Below the pieces are notes generated by a model. That model did not search any database, was not told the DNA's origin, and was given only the letters and a program-made list of their open reading frames with translations. Positions 1 through 5,072 of a stretch of 5,072 bases of DNA are shown piece by piece (within the stretch, counting starts at the first letter, position 1; every line of letters begins with the position of its first letter). Source of the DNA: Desulfuromonadales bacterium. Lineage in GTDB: Bacteria > Desulfobacterota > Desulfuromonadia > Desulfuromonadales > BM103. The DNA lies in NCBI GenBank assembly GCA_030640215.1, contig DAOWJU010000117.1:1-5072 (forward strand). Direction: 5' to 3'. Both the position numbers and the translations under genes were made by a program.

Positions 1-313
1 AGAGCGTCATCTCGGCGGCCACATGGGCGTCGCCCAGCCAGCCGCAGCGTTCCCGGTGGGGACAGTCCGTGGGGATGCCGTGGAGATTGCTGCGCTGTGT
101 CCACAATGCCGTTTCATGGATCCGGTTGATCAATGGGTCACTGCACTTGAAACGCCCCACCGAATCCACCGCCGTATGCACCACCACCCCCGTGAGGGTG
201 CGTCGGTCGGGCCCCCGTGAGCACCCGGTCAACTCGACATAGCGGAAACCGTGATAGGTGAAACGTGGTTCGTAGACCTCAGTGCCTTTTTTACCGGCCA
301 GGATGTAGCTGTC
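1..313 (-). other. GH78 alpha-L-rhamnosidase segment replacing the phosphomannomutase domain
   Basis: Residues ~417-520 of the minus-strand frame read DSYILAGKKGTEVYEPRFTY and continue with HGFRYVEL, then CSDPLINRIHETALWTQRSN and GIPTDCPHRERCGWLGDAH. These are hallmark motifs of bacterial GH78 alpha-L-rhamnosidases: the E.Y.PRFTYHGFRYVE strand at the end of the beta-domain and the PTDCP.R...GW.GDA segment that opens the (alpha/alpha)6 catalytic domain and carries acidic active-site residues. The several hundred residues that normally precede these motifs in GH78 enzymes are absent; the sequence is joined mid-protein to a phosphomannomutase start. G+C is about 62% here (187 of 300 bases). The homology is clear. 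Whether the joint exists in a genome is not. Confidence 0.85.
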
Positions 314-1561
314 CTTGGGCAGGGTCGATCCATATGCTGCGCCGAGGCGGGCAGAGAATTCCGGGGTCATCTCCACGTTGGTCAGGCCGCGGACCACGGC
401 GCCTTCAAAAAGGCTCTTGCGCCATTTTTCTCCCCAGATCAGGTTGATGGAGACTGTCGAGCCGCTCTCGATGACTTTGCGTGGCCAGATCTTGACGTTT
501 GGGCGTATGTTGACTTCATCGCCGACCATGGTTTCATCGGCGATCACGACACCCGTTTCAATAATCGCGCGTTGGCCAATCCGAACCCGGTGGCCAAGAT
601 TCGCCCCCGTGACCCTGGTGCCAGCCTTGATATAGACATTGTCCCAGAGCACAGCTTCTTTGAGGATGGCACCCTCTTCGATCTGGCAGTTGCGGCCGAG
701 AACGCAGTTGCTGAGCTGGGCGTTGCCATGAATCCTGGTGTTGTCGCCGAGGACGACCATGCCGGAGAGTGTGGCCTGCTCGTCCACCTGGGCACCAGGG
801 CTGATAAATATCGTACTGCCTGCAGAGCATGGCGGTTCAGCGATCTGAACCGCAACCTTGCCGTGACAGATGTCATGGCACGCTTCGAGGTACGCTTCAG
901 GGTTGCCGATGTCGGCCCAGTAACCTTGCATGTCGCAACCGAAGAGAGCATCGTTGTTCTCAAGCATTTTGGGAAAGACATCCTTGGACCAGTCGCGATT
1001 CTCTCCGTCAGGGATCAGCTCAAGAACTTCAGGCTCCAAAATGTAGATGCCGGTGTTGATGGTGTCGGAGAAGACTTCTCCCCATCCGGGCTTCTCAAGG
1101 AACTTGGTAATGCGGGATGCCTTGTCGGTGATGACAACACCGAACTGCAGAGGGTCGGTCACGGAGGTCAGGGTAATGGTTGCTTGCGCTTGCTTGTTTT
1201 CATGAAAAGCGAGCACTTTCGACAGGTCAAAGTCAGTCAGCAGATCACCGCTGATAATCATGAAACGTTCGTTAAGATGACGCGCTGCAGCTTTGACCGC
1301 GCCAGCCGTGCCGAAATCTTCTAATGGTGTCACGTAGGTGATGCGGACACCGAATTCGCTGCCGTCACCAAAATATTTTTTGATCGTTTCAGGTTGATGA
1401 AACAGCAGCAGGACCAAATCGGTAATGCCGTGTTGTTTCAGCAGGTTGACAATATGCTCCATGATCGGTCGATTGATCAATGGAATCATCGGTTTGGGCA
1501 TGCTGATCGTTAATGGGTGGATGCGGGTGCCGAAGCCGCCCGCCATGATAACAGCTTTCAA
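1..1561 (-). CDS. Mannose-1-phosphate guanylyltransferase-like protein, fused in frame to a GH78 rhamnosidase segment (partial)
   Basis: The first ~235 residues form a nucleotidyltransferase domain making NDP-sugars from sugar-1-phosphates. Visible are the signature AGGFGTR at residues 7-13 followed by PKPMIPL (22-28), GTAG at 84-87, SGD at 104-106 (metal/nucleotide site) and YWADIGNPEAY near 214-224. Residues ~248-375 are hexapeptide repeats of a left-handed beta-helix. Residues ~376-416 (WGEKW, NVEMTPEFSARLGAAYGSTL) match the linker and first strand of the phosphomannomutase domain in the ~830-residue bifunctional family. That domain then stops, and the frame continues as alpha-L-rhamnosidase from about residue 417. 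The frame is open for 520 codons to the window edge. The TTG start at 1561 is preferred because it gives the family N-terminus MKAVIMAGG and has AAGGAG six bases upstream; an in-frame ATG at 1588 would add nine residues and lacks a good ribosome site. The sugar specificity (mannose versus glucose) is inferred. The gene probably shares a transcript with the upstream response regulator. Confidence 0.88.
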   Translation of the reverse strand, partial: MKAVIMAGGFGTRIHPLTISMPKPMIPLINRPIMEHIVNLLKQHGITDLVLLLFHQPETIKKYFGDGSEFGVRITYVTPLEDFGTAGAVKAAARHLNERFMIISGDLLTDFDLSKVLAFHENKQAQATITLTSVTDPLQFGVVITDKASRITKFLEKPGWGEVFSDTINTGIYILEPEVLELIPDGENRDWSKDVFPKMLENNDALFGCDMQGYWADIGNPEAYLEACHDICHGKVAVQIAEPPCSAGSTIFISPGAQVDEQATLSGMVVLGDNTRIHGNAQLSNCVLGRNCQIEEGAILKEAVLWDNVYIKAGTRVTGANLGHRVRIGQRAIIETGVVIADETMVGDEVNIRPNVKIWPRKVIESGSTVSINLIWGEKWRKSLFEGAVVRGLTNVEMTPEFSARLGAAYGSTLPKDSYILAGKKGTEVYEPRFTYHGFRYVELTGCSRGPDRRTLTGVVVHTAVDSVGRFKCSDPLINRIHETALWTQRSNLHGIPTDCPHRERCGWLGDAHVAAEMTL

Positions 1562-1567
1562 TGGATT

Positions 1568-1573
1568 CTCCTT
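1568..1573 (-). promoter_or_regulatory. Ribosome binding site fixing a TTG start
   Basis: Minus-strand AAGGAG lies six bases before the TTG at 1561-1559. It supports TTG rather than the in-frame ATG at 1588 as the start of the nucleotidyltransferase. Confidence 0.75.
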
Positions 1574-1614
1574 CGAGCCTGGACCCATGCTTGGCCAACG
1601 GACCCAGAAGATGG

Positions 1615-1971
1615 TCAGGATTGTGCGAGAATTCGCCGGACTTCGTTTTTTAACTCATCAAGGTTGGAGCTTTTGACAACGTATGCATCTGCCAGCCAGG
1701 AGGAGAAGTCATCCTTGTAGCAGCTGTAAGCTGTACAAAGCACCACTGGAGTTTTCTCACGTTCGCGAGCGATCTGCTGCAGTAGTTCCAGGCCACTTTC
1801 CTGGTCAAGTTGTATGTCGAGAATGATCAGGTCAAACTGCTGGTGGCGCAGCTGTTCTATGGCGTCCTTGCGGTTGCCGCAGGTGATAACGGTATGGCCT
1901 TCATCTTCCAGTTCTGCAGCGTAAAGGTGGCGGATGTCACCTTCATCATCAATAACCATCAGATGTGCCAT
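1615..1971 (-). CDS. Receiver-only response regulator
   Basis: This 118-residue protein is a single CheY-like receiver domain with no output domain. The acidic pocket D8-D9 (VIDDE), phospho-acceptor D52 (LIILDIQL), the switch threonine T80 (LCTAY) and the conserved lysine K100 (YVVKSS) are all present, so it should be phosphorylated by a histidine kinase. No kinase gene is in the window. ATG at 1971 is preceded by AAGGAG at 1983-1978 with six-base spacing. The gene ends 53 bases before the nucleotidyltransferase start, on the same strand, with no terminator seen between them, so the two are probably co-transcribed. Without a DNA-binding domain it must act by protein contact or as a phosphorelay intermediate. 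A role in polysaccharide or motility control is inferred from the neighbour only. Confidence 0.93.
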   Translation of the reverse strand: MAHLMVIDDEGDIRHLYAAELEDEGHTVITCGNRKDAIEQLRHQQFDLIILDIQLDQESGLELLQQIAREREKTPVVLCTAYSCYKDDFSSWLADAYVVKSSNLDELKNEVRRILAQS

Positions 1972-1977
1972 AGTGTG

Positions 1978-1983
1978 CTCCTT
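1978..1983 (-). promoter_or_regulatory. Ribosome binding site of the response regulator
   Basis: Minus-strand AAGGAG lies six bases upstream of the ATG at 1971, a strong consensus site. Confidence 0.75.
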
Positions 1984-2007
1984 AGGGGTCGGAATTGAAT
2001 GGAGTTA

Positions 2008-2035
2008 ATTATACCAAGCAGATAGCCAACTGCAA
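2008..2035 (-). promoter_or_regulatory. Sigma70-type promoter for the regulator/nucleotidyltransferase operon
   Basis: On the minus strand a TTGCAG -35 box (2035-2030) and a perfect TATAAT -10 box (2013-2008) are separated by 16 bases. A TG one base before the -10 makes it an extended -10 (TGGTATAAT). Transcription would start near position 2000, leaving a leader of about 30 bases before the ATG at 1971. Confidence 0.7.
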
Positions 2036-2057
2036 TCACAGAAAATAGTTTGTCCGC

Positions 2058-2086
2058 TTGCCCTGGATTTACGGCAGTGGCATAGT
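2058..2086 (+). promoter_or_regulatory. Possible promoter of the radical SAM gene, abutting its start codon
   Basis: TTGCCC (2058-2063), a 17-base spacer and CATAGT (2081-2086), preceded by TGG as in an extended -10, lie just before the ATG at 2093. Transcription from it would begin at or within a few bases of the start codon. The -10 differs from consensus at two positions, so this is a weak call. Confidence 0.3.
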
Positions 2087-2092
2087 CCTGTC

Positions 2093-3019
2093 ATGATGAT
2101 GAAACCCTACAAACTTTTTTCCGCGCATCTTAAAAAACATTTTGCTACCCGAGTTCACAAGATCTCTGTTGATGCCGGCTTTGGCTGTCCGAATCGCGAT
2201 GGTGGCAGAGTCGGTGCAGGCTGTCTTTTCTGTGACCCGGGAGGTTCCGGCTCGGTCGGTATTGAGCGACAGTTGAGCGTTGCTGGCCAGCTTGAACAAG
2301 GCAAAGAAGTCATGACCCGTAAGTACCATGCGGGTAAATTCATGGCCTATTTTCAACCATTTTCCAATACTCTTGCCCCGGTAAACCAGCTGCGGGCCCT
2401 CTATGACGAAGCCCTGGCTGTTGATGATGTCGTTGGTCTGGCGGTCGGTACCCGGCCCGATTGTGTCCCCTCTGAGGTCCTTGACCTGCTCGGTGAATAT
2501 CACCGGCGCACCTATTTCTGGCTGGAACTTGGGCTGCAGAGCAGCCACGACCGTACACTCGTCTGGCTACAGCGCGGCCACGATTTTGCAACTTTCAACA
2601 AGGCGTACCACGAGGCCAAATCACGCGGTCTGCGGGTATGTGTCCATGTGATTATTGGCTTGCCCGGGGAGAGTCGTGCGGACATGCTGGCAACGGCGAA
2701 TGTCCTGGCGGGGTTGCAGGTCGATGGTGTGAAGCTACATCTTCTCCATGTTATGAAGAATACACCGCTTAGTAACTTGTATGACGAGGGTAAAATTCAG
2801 TTGCTGGATAGGGATGAGTATGTCGATCTGGTGGTCGATTTTATGGAACGACTGCATCCCGCAACCTTGATCCACAGACTGACTGGCGATGGCCCACGAG
2901 ATCAACTACTGGCCCCGCTCTGGTCACTTAAAAAGTGGGAGGTCCTGAATGCGATTGATGCTGAGTTTGCCAGGCGTGGCTCTCGACAGGGTGATCGTTA
3001 TGGGAGCCCGTCCAAATAA
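2093..3019 (+). CDS. yhcC: YhcC-type (TIGR01212) radical SAM protein
   Basis: The protein has 308 residues, close to the usual ~300-320 of this family. The N-terminus (MMMKPYKLFSAHLKKHF) leads into DAGFGCPNRDGG and a cysteine cluster C32-x11-C44-x2-C47, which would bind the 4Fe-4S cluster that cleaves S-adenosylmethionine; the long first spacing is typical of this family and of Elp3-like proteins. Further family blocks are YFQPFSNT, VGTRPDC, ELGLQSSHD, HVIIGLPGE and KLHLLHVMKNTPL, together forming the radical SAM barrel, followed by the C-terminal segment HRLTGDGPRDQLLAP. The substrate is not firmly known; a cytoplasmic modification role is an inference. The first of three consecutive ATGs was taken as start because no ATG, GTG or TTG lies upstream in frame before a stop at 2006, but no Shine-Dalgarno sequence precedes it. 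It is a single-gene unit, divergent from the response regulator. Confidence 0.92.
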   Translation: MMMKPYKLFSAHLKKHFATRVHKISVDAGFGCPNRDGGRVGAGCLFCDPGGSGSVGIERQLSVAGQLEQGKEVMTRKYHAGKFMAYFQPFSNTLAPVNQLRALYDEALAVDDVVGLAVGTRPDCVPSEVLDLLGEYHRRTYFWLELGLQSSHDRTLVWLQRGHDFATFNKAYHEAKSRGLRVCVHVIIGLPGESRADMLATANVLAGLQVDGVKLHLLHVMKNTPLSNLYDEGKIQLLDRDEYVDLVVDFMERLHPATLIHRLTGDGPRDQLLAPLWSLKKWEVLNAIDAEFARRGSRQGDRYGSPSK

Positions 3020-3058
3020 AAGAGAAAGTTTAGCCAGGGGAATTGAAAACACCTGGAA

Positions 3059-3178
3059 TCAGGAGGCGTTATTAACCATAGGCGTTGGTTGGGCAGCCGT
3101 CTCAGTTGGGCCGCTCCAGGAGAGGAGCAGCAGAGACGCCCAGATGATGCTGACTAGTAAAATTACGCAACGGAACAT
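3059..3178 (-). CDS. Doubtful small ORF for a hydrophobic peptide
   Basis: In the 265-base gap 3020-3284, the minus strand encodes a 39-residue peptide with basic start (MFRC), a hydrophobic run VILLVSIIWASLLLLSW at residues 5-21 and a short polar tail (SGPTETAAQP) ending at TGA. It resembles a small single-pass membrane or exported peptide and lies downstream of, and on the same strand as, the cytochrome b5-like gene. Against it, no ribosome binding site precedes the ATG, there is no recognisable homology, and a chance hydrophobic ORF this short is common. The rest of the gap holds an imperfect hairpin at 3107-3142 (TGGGC/GCCCA outer and GCTCC/GGAGC inner arms) without a T tract. No convincing terminator was seen for either flanking gene. 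Confidence 0.22.
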   Translation of the reverse strand: MFRCVILLVSIIWASLLLLSWSGPTETAAQPTPMVNNAS

Positions 3179-3284
3179 GGCGCGGAGGATAACCGAGCGA
3201 GAGAGAAAAATCAAGCATGCAAAAACCGTAATAAAAGATTTTCTGGCTTCCTCGCCCGTATCTCTGACTCTGTGACCCGACTTT

Positions 3285-3605
3285 TTAAAGGATCAAAAAT
3301 AGCACCAAGGCAATAATGGCAACTGCAATGATAATTCCGATAGTCATTTTACCGCTGCCACTGGGTGTTTGTGCCGGGATATCTGCCTCGAGAGTCCCTA
3401 CCACCGGGAATCGTTCAATAACCGCACGAACATGTGGGGCTTTGGCCAGTTCCTCCGTCAGGTCCTGACCGGCCTTATGATCAGGGGGGTGCAGCCCATT
3501 TTGCCAGCGGGGGCTGTCGGTCACATCATAGATTGTGCCATTGACGGCAACGTAGGCACGACGGCCATCCTGGCCATCGTTGCTGGCAAGTTCAGTAAGC
3601 GTCAT
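3285..3605 (-). CDS. Cytochrome b5-like heme-binding protein with C-terminal membrane anchor
   Basis: The protein has 106 residues. Residues ~1-72 match the cytochrome b5-like heme/steroid-binding domain: AYVAVNGTIYDVTDSPRW (17-34), then GLHPPDHKAGQDLTEEL (37-53), APHVRAVI (56-63) and PVVGTL (67-72). Candidate axial heme ligands are H39 or H43 in the first loop and H58 in the second; the canonical HPGG is changed to HPPDH. A linker APSG-type stretch (residues 74-86, rich in Pro, Ser and Gly) leads to a single hydrophobic helix at 88-106 that ends the protein, so it looks tail-anchored with the heme domain on the cytoplasmic side; no N-terminal signal peptide is present. Electron transfer is the expected role, but heme binding and partner are not shown by the sequence. 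ATG at 3605 has the strong site AAAGGAGG (3617-3610) with four-base spacing. It is transcribed divergently from the mshM-like gene. Confidence 0.88.
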   Translation of the reverse strand: MTLTELASNDGQDGRRAYVAVNGTIYDVTDSPRWQNGLHPPDHKAGQDLTEELAKAPHVRAVIERFPVVGTLEADIPAQTPSGSGKMTIGIIIAVAIIALVLFLIL

Positions 3606-3609
3606 AAGG

Positions 3610-3617
3610 CCTCCTTT
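3610..3617 (-). promoter_or_regulatory. Ribosome binding site of the cytochrome b5-like gene
   Basis: Minus-strand AAAGGAGG is a near-perfect anti-16S match, four bases before the ATG at 3605. The spacing is slightly short. Confidence 0.75.
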
Positions 3618-3648
3618 CTTTCGGCGATGGGATATAAGTCGTTATTTC

Positions 3649-3678
3649 TTGGTTTATTTTTAAATTAGCCTATATACT
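3649..3678 (+). promoter_or_regulatory. Possible promoter of the mshM-mshN operon
   Basis: TTGGTT (3649-3654) is followed after 16 bases by TATATA (3671-3676) or after 18 bases by TATACT (3673-3678), in an A+T-rich stretch between the divergent genes. Transcription would start about 45 bases before the ATG at 3730. The boxes are plausible but A+T-rich DNA gives such matches by chance. Confidence 0.4.
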
Positions 3679-3729
3679 ACTCACTATTTGCTGGTTGGCA
3701 AGCTGACCAGTCTTGGGGGGTATCGTTTC

Positions 3730-4650
3730 ATGTATCAGGAACATTTCAAGTTGCGGGAAGCTCCATTCTCGTTGACGCCTGATCCCGATTATTTTTATAA
3801 TTACACCGGCCATCAACAGGCTTTGAATGTTCTGCTGGTTGCATTGCAAAGCGGCGAAGGTCTGATCAAAATTACCGGTGAAGTCGGGACTGGTAAAACT
3901 CTTCTCTGTCGTAAACTGATTGTCGCGTTGAATAATGACTTTCAGACGGCCTATCTGCCCAACCCTCTCCTGAAACCTTTTGAGCTTTATCAGGCTTTCG
4001 CCGAAGAGCTTGGGATTAATATTCCTCACGGCATTACCATGCATGATCTGGTCAAACGGATTACGGAGCAATTGGTAGTGCTGCAGCAGAAGGGCAAAAA
4101 AGCTGTGCTTTGCATTGACGAAGCGCAAGCCATGCCTCAAGAGACTCTGGAAGCGTTGCGTCTGTTCAGTAATCTGGAGACGGAAAAACAGAAGCTGCTG
4201 CAGATTGTCGTCTTCGCCCAGCCAGAGTTGAACAAAATGCTTGAAAGCAGCGATTTACGTCAACTGCGTCAACGTATAACTTTCAGTTATGATCTGCCTG
4301 CGTTGGATCGTGAGGCTGTTACTGGTTATGTCAATTACCGTCTGAAGGTGGCCGGCCATGGAGAAGGCACGCTGTTCGATACTGCTGCCCTCGACGCTGT
4401 TTATCGCTCCAGTCGAGGCATCCCACGATTGGTCAACATCATTTGCCATAAAGCCTTGATGGTTGCTTATGGTCAAGGCCAGAGAGTGGTTGATCTGCCA
4501 CAAGTAAAAACGGCCAGTCGTGATACCGAAGATGCAACGCAACTCTCCAGATCACTGCTGGCTGGCAAATCATTCAATTTTACAATCGGTATCATTACTC
4601 TTCTGGAAATTGTTTTGGTCATTTACTTGCTGCGGAGCGTGTTGCAATGA
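3730..4650 (+). CDS. mshM: MshM/ExeA-type AAA+ ATPase of pilus or type II secretion biogenesis
   Basis: This 306-residue protein opens with the family signature MYQEHFKLREAPFSLTPDP, followed by a P-loop GEVGTGKT (Walker A, residues 50-57), a Walker B VLCIDEAQ (126-133), a QLRQRI block of the sensor/arginine-finger region and the SSRGIPRLVNIICHKAL C-terminal lid motif. A hydrophobic helix at about 284-303 ends the protein and would anchor it in the inner membrane. Family members (MshM, ExeA/GspA) help assemble or insert the secretin and its periplasmic partners using ATP. ATG at 3730 was chosen because it matches the family N-terminus and has GGGGGG at 3715-3720; an upstream in-frame TTG at 3688 lacks support. 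The next gene overlaps by four bases (ATGA), indicating translational coupling. The MshM name rests on the MshN-like partner; the related PEP-CTERM/exosortase-linked ATPase family is the main alternative. Confidence 0.9.
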   Translation: MYQEHFKLREAPFSLTPDPDYFYNYTGHQQALNVLLVALQSGEGLIKITGEVGTGKTLLCRKLIVALNNDFQTAYLPNPLLKPFELYQAFAEELGINIPHGITMHDLVKRITEQLVVLQQKGKKAVLCIDEAQAMPQETLEALRLFSNLETEKQKLLQIVVFAQPELNKMLESSDLRQLRQRITFSYDLPALDREAVTGYVNYRLKVAGHGEGTLFDTAALDAVYRSSRGIPRLVNIICHKALMVAYGQGQRVVDLPQVKTASRDTEDATQLSRSLLAGKSFNFTIGIITLLEIVLVIYLLRSVLQ

Positions 4651-5072
4651 GTTTGATTAACCAAATGCTGCGTGATCTGCAGCAACAGAAAAAGGCTGAC
4701 GGGCAGACGAAACCAGAGGCCTTGCGCCCCAAGATGGTGGAGCGTATACCCTACCTGCCACTGCCGGTGGTTTTGGGTGGCGCAGCTTTACTCCTGCTTT
4801 GTCTGGTCTGGTGGCTGGCCGGGGTTTTGTCTGACATGATGTTTGGTTTCGAGCCGGTCGCTAAGCCGACCGATACTCAGCAGATTGTTGTAAACGAATA
4901 TTCACCAGAAGCAGAGAAAACCCTGCTTATTGCTACAGAGACGGATCAGCTGACGATGGCGGAGCGTGAGGCTGAACCCCCGATTGTCTCAGCCAAGACC
5001 GTTTCAGCCAAGACCTTTTCAACTCCGGCCGTTTCAATCCCGATGACCCCGGCCGTGAGTGAACCGGTCGCA
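4647..5072 (+). CDS. mshN: MshN-like pilus biogenesis membrane protein (N-terminal part)
   Basis: The frame is open from ATG at 4647 to the window end (142 codons). The N-terminus MSLINQMLRDLQQQKK matches the start of MshN-type proteins (S-x-I-N-x-M-L-x-D-L), followed by a single transmembrane helix at about residues 37-61 (PLPVVLGGAALLLLCLVWWL). After it comes a low-complexity Pro/Ser/Thr/Ala-rich stretch expected to be a periplasmic linker. In MshN the C-terminal part carries TPR repeats; here it lies outside the window. A short cytoplasmic tail plus one membrane helix suits a protein that works with the ATPase encoded just upstream, whose stop codon overlaps this start (ATGA). GGAG at 4634-4637, nine bases upstream and inside the preceding gene, is the likely ribosome site. 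GspB/ExeB-type partners are an alternative, but their usual N-terminus (MSYILDAL) differs. Confidence 0.8.
   Translation, partial: MSLINQMLRDLQQQKKADGQTKPEALRPKMVERIPYLPLPVVLGGAALLLLCLVWWLAGVLSDMMFGFEPVAKPTDTQQIVVNEYSPEAEKTLLIATETDQLTMAEREAEPPIVSAKTVSAKTFSTPAVSIPMTPAVSEPVA
4986..5045 (+). repeat. 15-base, five-residue tandem repeat in the mshN linker
   Basis: Two adjacent 15-base units (4986-5000 and 5001-5015) differ at one base and encode VSAKT twice. Two further degenerate units follow, encoding FSTPA and VSIPM. The period keeps the frame, so copy number could vary without breaking the gene. Confidence 0.7.

Follow-up and report, generated by a model that had tools for sequence, protein, structure and literature searches.

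A close described counterpart of the locus analysed here is an enzyme of about 836 residues from the Desulfuromonadales, for which some sources use the name "mannose-1-phosphate guanylyltransferase/phosphomannomutase." The closest named relative, L020, carries an intact gene for this enzyme, encoding 836 residues (L020:4013-6523); the gene that follows it (L020:6584-9283) is of the alpha-amylase family, not a rhamnosidase, a neighbor suggestive of a glycogen or alpha-glucan context for the nucleotidyltransferase. No match to such an alpha-amylase-family downstream gene was found in the bin from which our sequence derives, in a search run without a positive control. The other family concerned is that of the GH78 alpha-L-rhamnosidases, whose full-length members P0122 and P0242 possess the N-terminal domains PF25788 and PF08531; both domains are absent from the protein described below.

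The stretch of DNA that was analysed (the window) is contig C315 in its entirety, 5,072 bases from a draft genome of 347 contigs which is 82.9% complete and 3.5% contaminated. On its minus strand a single stop-free frame of 529 residues (1588-2) begins as a nucleotidyltransferase/mutase-type protein, continues as a GH78 rhamnosidase and runs off the end of the contig (1..1), as had been claimed from the sequence, and domain matches are present on both sides. The first part (293..1588, minus strand; residues 1-432) is the front half of the Desulfuromonadales enzyme and comprises an N-terminal nucleotidyltransferase domain (NTP_transferase, PF00483; residues 11-240, 3.6e-53 in the profile search), a left-handed beta-helix after it (PF25084; residues 260-361, 4e-22), and some 50 first residues of mutase domain I, a start that was recognized from the relatives. 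The second part (2..289, minus strand) is a GH78 alpha-L-rhamnosidase fragment, holding the end of the concanavalin-like domain and the start of the six-hairpin domain: Bac_rhamnosid matches residues 425-471 (profile positions 57-102 of 102), and Bac_rhamnosid6H matches residues 476-527 with E = 8.8e-20, far beyond chance, so that profile positions 2-54 of 339, about the first sixth of the six-hairpin domain, are present before the contig stops. Domain coverage bears out the claim that both partners are incomplete, the mutase-type enzyme being without the rest of its mutase half and the GH78 protein without its front and most of its catalytic domain.

Apart from the GH78 piece, contig C315 is, as judged from similarity and gene order, ordinary for its lineage. 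Window 293-5072 gives a continuous 85% DNA match to L020 over 4.8 kb with the same gene order, and the region 1615..5072, syntenic with relatives, is genuine host context: a response regulator, a TIGR01212-type radical SAM protein, a cytochrome b5-like protein, an ATPase of the XrtA/PEP-CTERM-associated type and a further open reading frame. Upstream genes recurred among ten relatives (the radical SAM protein in all 10, the response regulator and the cytochrome b5-like protein in 9 each, the ATPase in 3), counts that are affected by several of these loci being short. The radical SAM protein (2093-3019) belongs to the TIGR01212 (MnmL/YtqA) family, its 362.7 bits exceeding the cut-off of 180; the ATPase (3730-4650) resembles the XrtA/PEP-CTERM-associated ATPase (TIGR03015) at 236.1 bits, under the cut-off of 324.5, and is overlapped by the last open reading frame (4647-5072), which runs off the contig. 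The nucleotidyltransferase half matches Desulfuromonadales proteins at up to 94%, and the seven relatives with an organism name, among the best 120 of 7874, are all Desulfuromonadales or Deltaproteobacteria.

The match of the window protein to the intact enzyme P0002 stops at residue 426 of 836 (about residue 423 by column counts). A complete C-terminal mutase-fold half is not found in the window, and the remainder is absent from contig C315. Elsewhere in the bin the missing half has no close match, the best being a stand-alone mutase at 24% identity; since the bin is incomplete, this absence proves little on its own.

The mutase-like half of the intact relatives is itself unusual. Residues 383-825 of P0002, nearly the whole of this half, align with solved phosphomannomutases. 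We searched it with patterns that we take to represent the serine, metal, sugar and phosphate motifs of the mutase active site, and the canonical motifs were missing from the C-terminal half (residues ~380-836) in all 116 proteins with 800 residues or more. Slightly looser patterns gave the same outcome in 73 of 73 full-length loci, a count that leaves out 7 of the 80 loci (in four the chosen frame meets a stop within 13 codons, and the others are short or stopless). Three stand-alone mutases from the same genome served as a control: the serine and metal patterns were found in all three and the sugar and phosphate patterns in two each, so these last two patterns each miss one variant. When eight relatives were aligned with these three mutases, the catalytic-serine position is still Ser (FRQSP) in all eight; the metal loop DGDxDR has become GPSGEK/R, the sugar loop GExSG/A gives way to residues such as ASMDDR, and LPDQxRP stands in the phosphate loop, again in all eight. 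The half annotated as phosphomannomutase is thus probably not a mutase (a pseudo-mutase), and the conservation of the replacement loops suggests another role for it. The literature search found no inactive phosphomannomutase domain associated with a nucleotidyltransferase. For the window, this qualifies the original prediction that the mutase had lost its catalytic serine region: the truncation stands, but with the motifs missing in the relatives the intact gene probably encodes no canonical mutase either.

The position of the joint could be defined to within a few codons. Ungapped column counts were made against 115 mutase-type and 98 GH78 relatives, these being the rows in which the anchor motif was matched (115 of 120 and 98 of 120; the remainder were left out). 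The family switch falls between codon 432 and codon 435 (window 295-284). Gly432 (295-293), the last mutase-family residue, is Gly in 115 of 115 mutase rows; the GH78 pattern holds from Gly435 (286-284) onward, with Gly in 86 of 98 GH78 rows, and Glu437 and residues 440-448 are identical in all 98. Between them, codon 433 (290..292, minus strand), a single AAA, encodes a Lys outside the patterns of both families, the residue being Arg in all 115 mutases and Gly in 97 of 98 GH78 proteins. By blastn against ten relatives drawn from the 80 genome-collection loci, the DNA match breaks off at 293 or 294 for nine and at 309 for the tenth. Column counts and blastn border agree, and the residues SYILAG (YILAG) are therefore assigned to the mutase rather than to a GH78 strand; L020 reads DSYILAGRD at the corresponding stretch. 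The junction had been placed at 290..345: the seamless frame holds, whereas the reading of SYILAG as GH78 does not, the joint lying at 290-293 and the GH78 sequence covering only 2-289.

A short shared D-S-Y-I-L sequence had been proposed as the cause of the joint. GH78 proteins do have a similar D-x-Y-x-x-x-G motif, but it is offset from the joint by one residue: in 107 of the 109 GH78 rows counted for this purpose (of 120) the Y/F lies at -11 before EPRF, as against -12 in the window. A shared sequence at the joint is thus unsupported by the register, and we do not adopt it as the mechanism. Base composition across the joint is uninformative, as had been anticipated. A 19-base pattern at the joint matches only itself within the window, and plasmid records gave two short nucleotide matches, both of which fall in the nucleotidyltransferase part and leave the GH78 piece unmatched.

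The joint preserves both strand and reading frame and introduces no stop, and this is what might be expected if a real, recent, strain-specific recombination had put a foreign GH78 gene in frame, resulting in a hybrid protein or a broken gene; the stretch DCPHRERCGWLGD, retained in the GH78 piece and unchanged in P0242, can be read in the same way. We consider such an event very improbable. Strand and frame would both be kept about one time in six by chance, which makes them a weak argument for a real fusion; large parts of both partners are lost; there are no direct or inverted repeats of at least 12 bases in window 1-1000; and the joint lies some 290 bases from a contig end in a fragmented draft, the GH78 piece being the terminal sequence of contig C315. 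The distribution of the GH78 domain and of the joint itself, considered below, also speaks against recombination.

The relatives of the GH78 piece lie elsewhere. Residues 434-529 are 86% identical to P0242 over 95 of 96 residues and 80% identical to P0122. P0242 is the best GH78 match seen, and no organism is shown for it or for 111 of the 120 listed relatives (the best 120 of 1998). Of the nine that show one, two are given as plain "bacterium" and none is from the Desulfuromonadales; the others are from Chlamydiae, Chthonomonadetes, Patescibacteria, Armatimonadota, Abitibacteriaceae, Maribellus (Bacteroidota) and Bacteroidetes. Comparing the halves separately, as the original prediction had recommended, thus sets a first half from Desulfuromonadales or Deltaproteobacteria against named GH78 relatives from other phyla or from a plain "bacterium," although with 9 of 120 named the organism-name evidence for the lineage of the GH78 piece is thin. 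The GH78 catalytic domain (PF17389) was found at E ≤ 1e-10 in one of the 136 genomes of the order, only on contig C315, and in none of the other 135 at that threshold, the order-wide listing leaving out weaker matches; at E ≤ 0.001 it occurs in one of the 22 genomes of the family. The GH78 donor itself was not found among the matches listed, of which P0242 is the best, and no exact overlap sequence is shown.

Recurrence of the same fusion in other genomes had been put forward as the sign of a real gene. Within the 136 genomes of the order there are 79 other strong matches to the protein (E ≤ 1e-100). Of these, 78 extend no further than residue 436 (two stop well short of it, at 321 and 368), and one reaches 448; the joint was not seen in any of the other 135 genomes. 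A search of 84,980 species genomes yielded 109 loci; we kept the best 80, and all 80 match the nucleotidyltransferase half. A tblastn search of the GH78 piece against all 80 loci gave no match at E ≤ 0.001 and nine chance-level matches (E 0.9-8.5); the match at L049 also reaches residue 448, again with no GH78 match at E ≤ 0.001. Finally, 5.8 billion proteins were searched with the fusion as read (best 120 of 7874), with its GH78 part (best 120 of 1998) and with a completed model of 933 residues (best 120 of 7803), the last added because the fusion query admits proteins of 0.55-1.75 times its 529 residues, which places a fusion of about 933 residues just outside. The 241 proteins listed from these searches divide into 120 that match the first half and 121 that match the GH78 piece, and none has both. 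The widest match to the 933-residue model, covering 58% of the query, is P0242 (1069 amino acids), which proves to be a plain five-domain GH78 protein: its alignment to the window protein begins at residue 386, and residues 1-432 alone give no match to it at E ≤ 10. The literature search found no fusion protein of a mannose-1-phosphate guanylyltransferase with a rhamnosidase.

Taken together, the change of family, the loss of DNA similarity at the joint, the position at a contig end, the failure to find the GH78 catalytic domain in the other 135 genomes of the order and the lack of a second fusion among the listed proteins and loci point to a chimeric contig end, and the artefact or mis-joined assembly suspected in the original prediction is strongly supported. 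The change between two lineages is abrupt (names being available for 9 of 120 GH78 matches and 7 of 120 matches to the other half), and the joint is absent from independent genomes among the 135 genomes, the best 80 loci and the 241 proteins listed. We conclude that the joint at 290-293 is very likely an artefact and not a genuine gene fusion. Some 290 bases from a foreign GH78 rhamnosidase gene, probably from another member of the sampled community, would have become attached to a Desulfuromonadales contig, and the native gene would continue into the remainder of the mutase-like domain, as it does in the relatives. The likely step is that a short-read assembler extended the contig wrongly where coverage was interrupted or the graph branched; a chimeric library molecule would leave the same trace. 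That the error arose in library or assembly, and in which of the two, we infer from the assembled contig.

The second of these routes, a library chimera formed by template switching during PCR or whole-genome amplification and faithfully assembled at low depth, would suit a foreign tail whose length, if short-read sequencing was used, is roughly that of one insert or of one or two reads. Normal molecules usually outnumber chimeric ones, however, and an assembler should follow the native path unless depth is very low; we regard this form of the artefact as rather unlikely. Codon 433 sits awkwardly with the artefact reading: its Lys fits neither side, and neither a clean overlap join nor, as yet, any other mechanism explains it. 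Other than the kept strand and frame, the reading as a real fusion is without support, and we give slightly less credence still to its most specific form, in which an acquired foreign GH78 rhamnosidase recombined in frame into the nucleotidyltransferase/pseudo-mutase gene of one Desulfuromonadales strain to yield a protein that is part cytoplasmic nucleotide-sugar enzyme and part glycoside hydrolase.

The nucleotidyltransferase-rhamnosidase fusion is thus most likely not a real feature, and the contig calls for a quality warning. In databases its predicted protein would appear as a nucleotidyltransferase-rhamnosidase fusion, and such an entry would suggest rhamnose degradation in an order in which the GH78 catalytic domain was found in none of the other 135 genomes. 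Bases 1-292 of contig C315 should be trimmed or flagged.

The locus can be placed against three known systems. With the intact Desulfuromonadales enzyme of about 836 residues (P0002 and relatives) it shares residues 1-432, at 93-94% protein identity to the closest relative, and the same upstream gene order; it differs in that P0002 residues ~424-836 are missing and a GH78 piece stands in their place. With the GH78 alpha-L-rhamnosidases (PF05592, PF17389) it shares 95 residues, at 86% identity to P0242 and 80% to P0122, whereas the Ig-like and N-terminal domains and a complete catalytic domain of those proteins are lacking and the piece starts mid-domain. Chimeric metagenome contigs are normally established from reads, and the present assignment to that class is made from assembled sequence; what the window has in common with them is that family and lineage change abruptly close to where a short contig of a fragmented bin ends.
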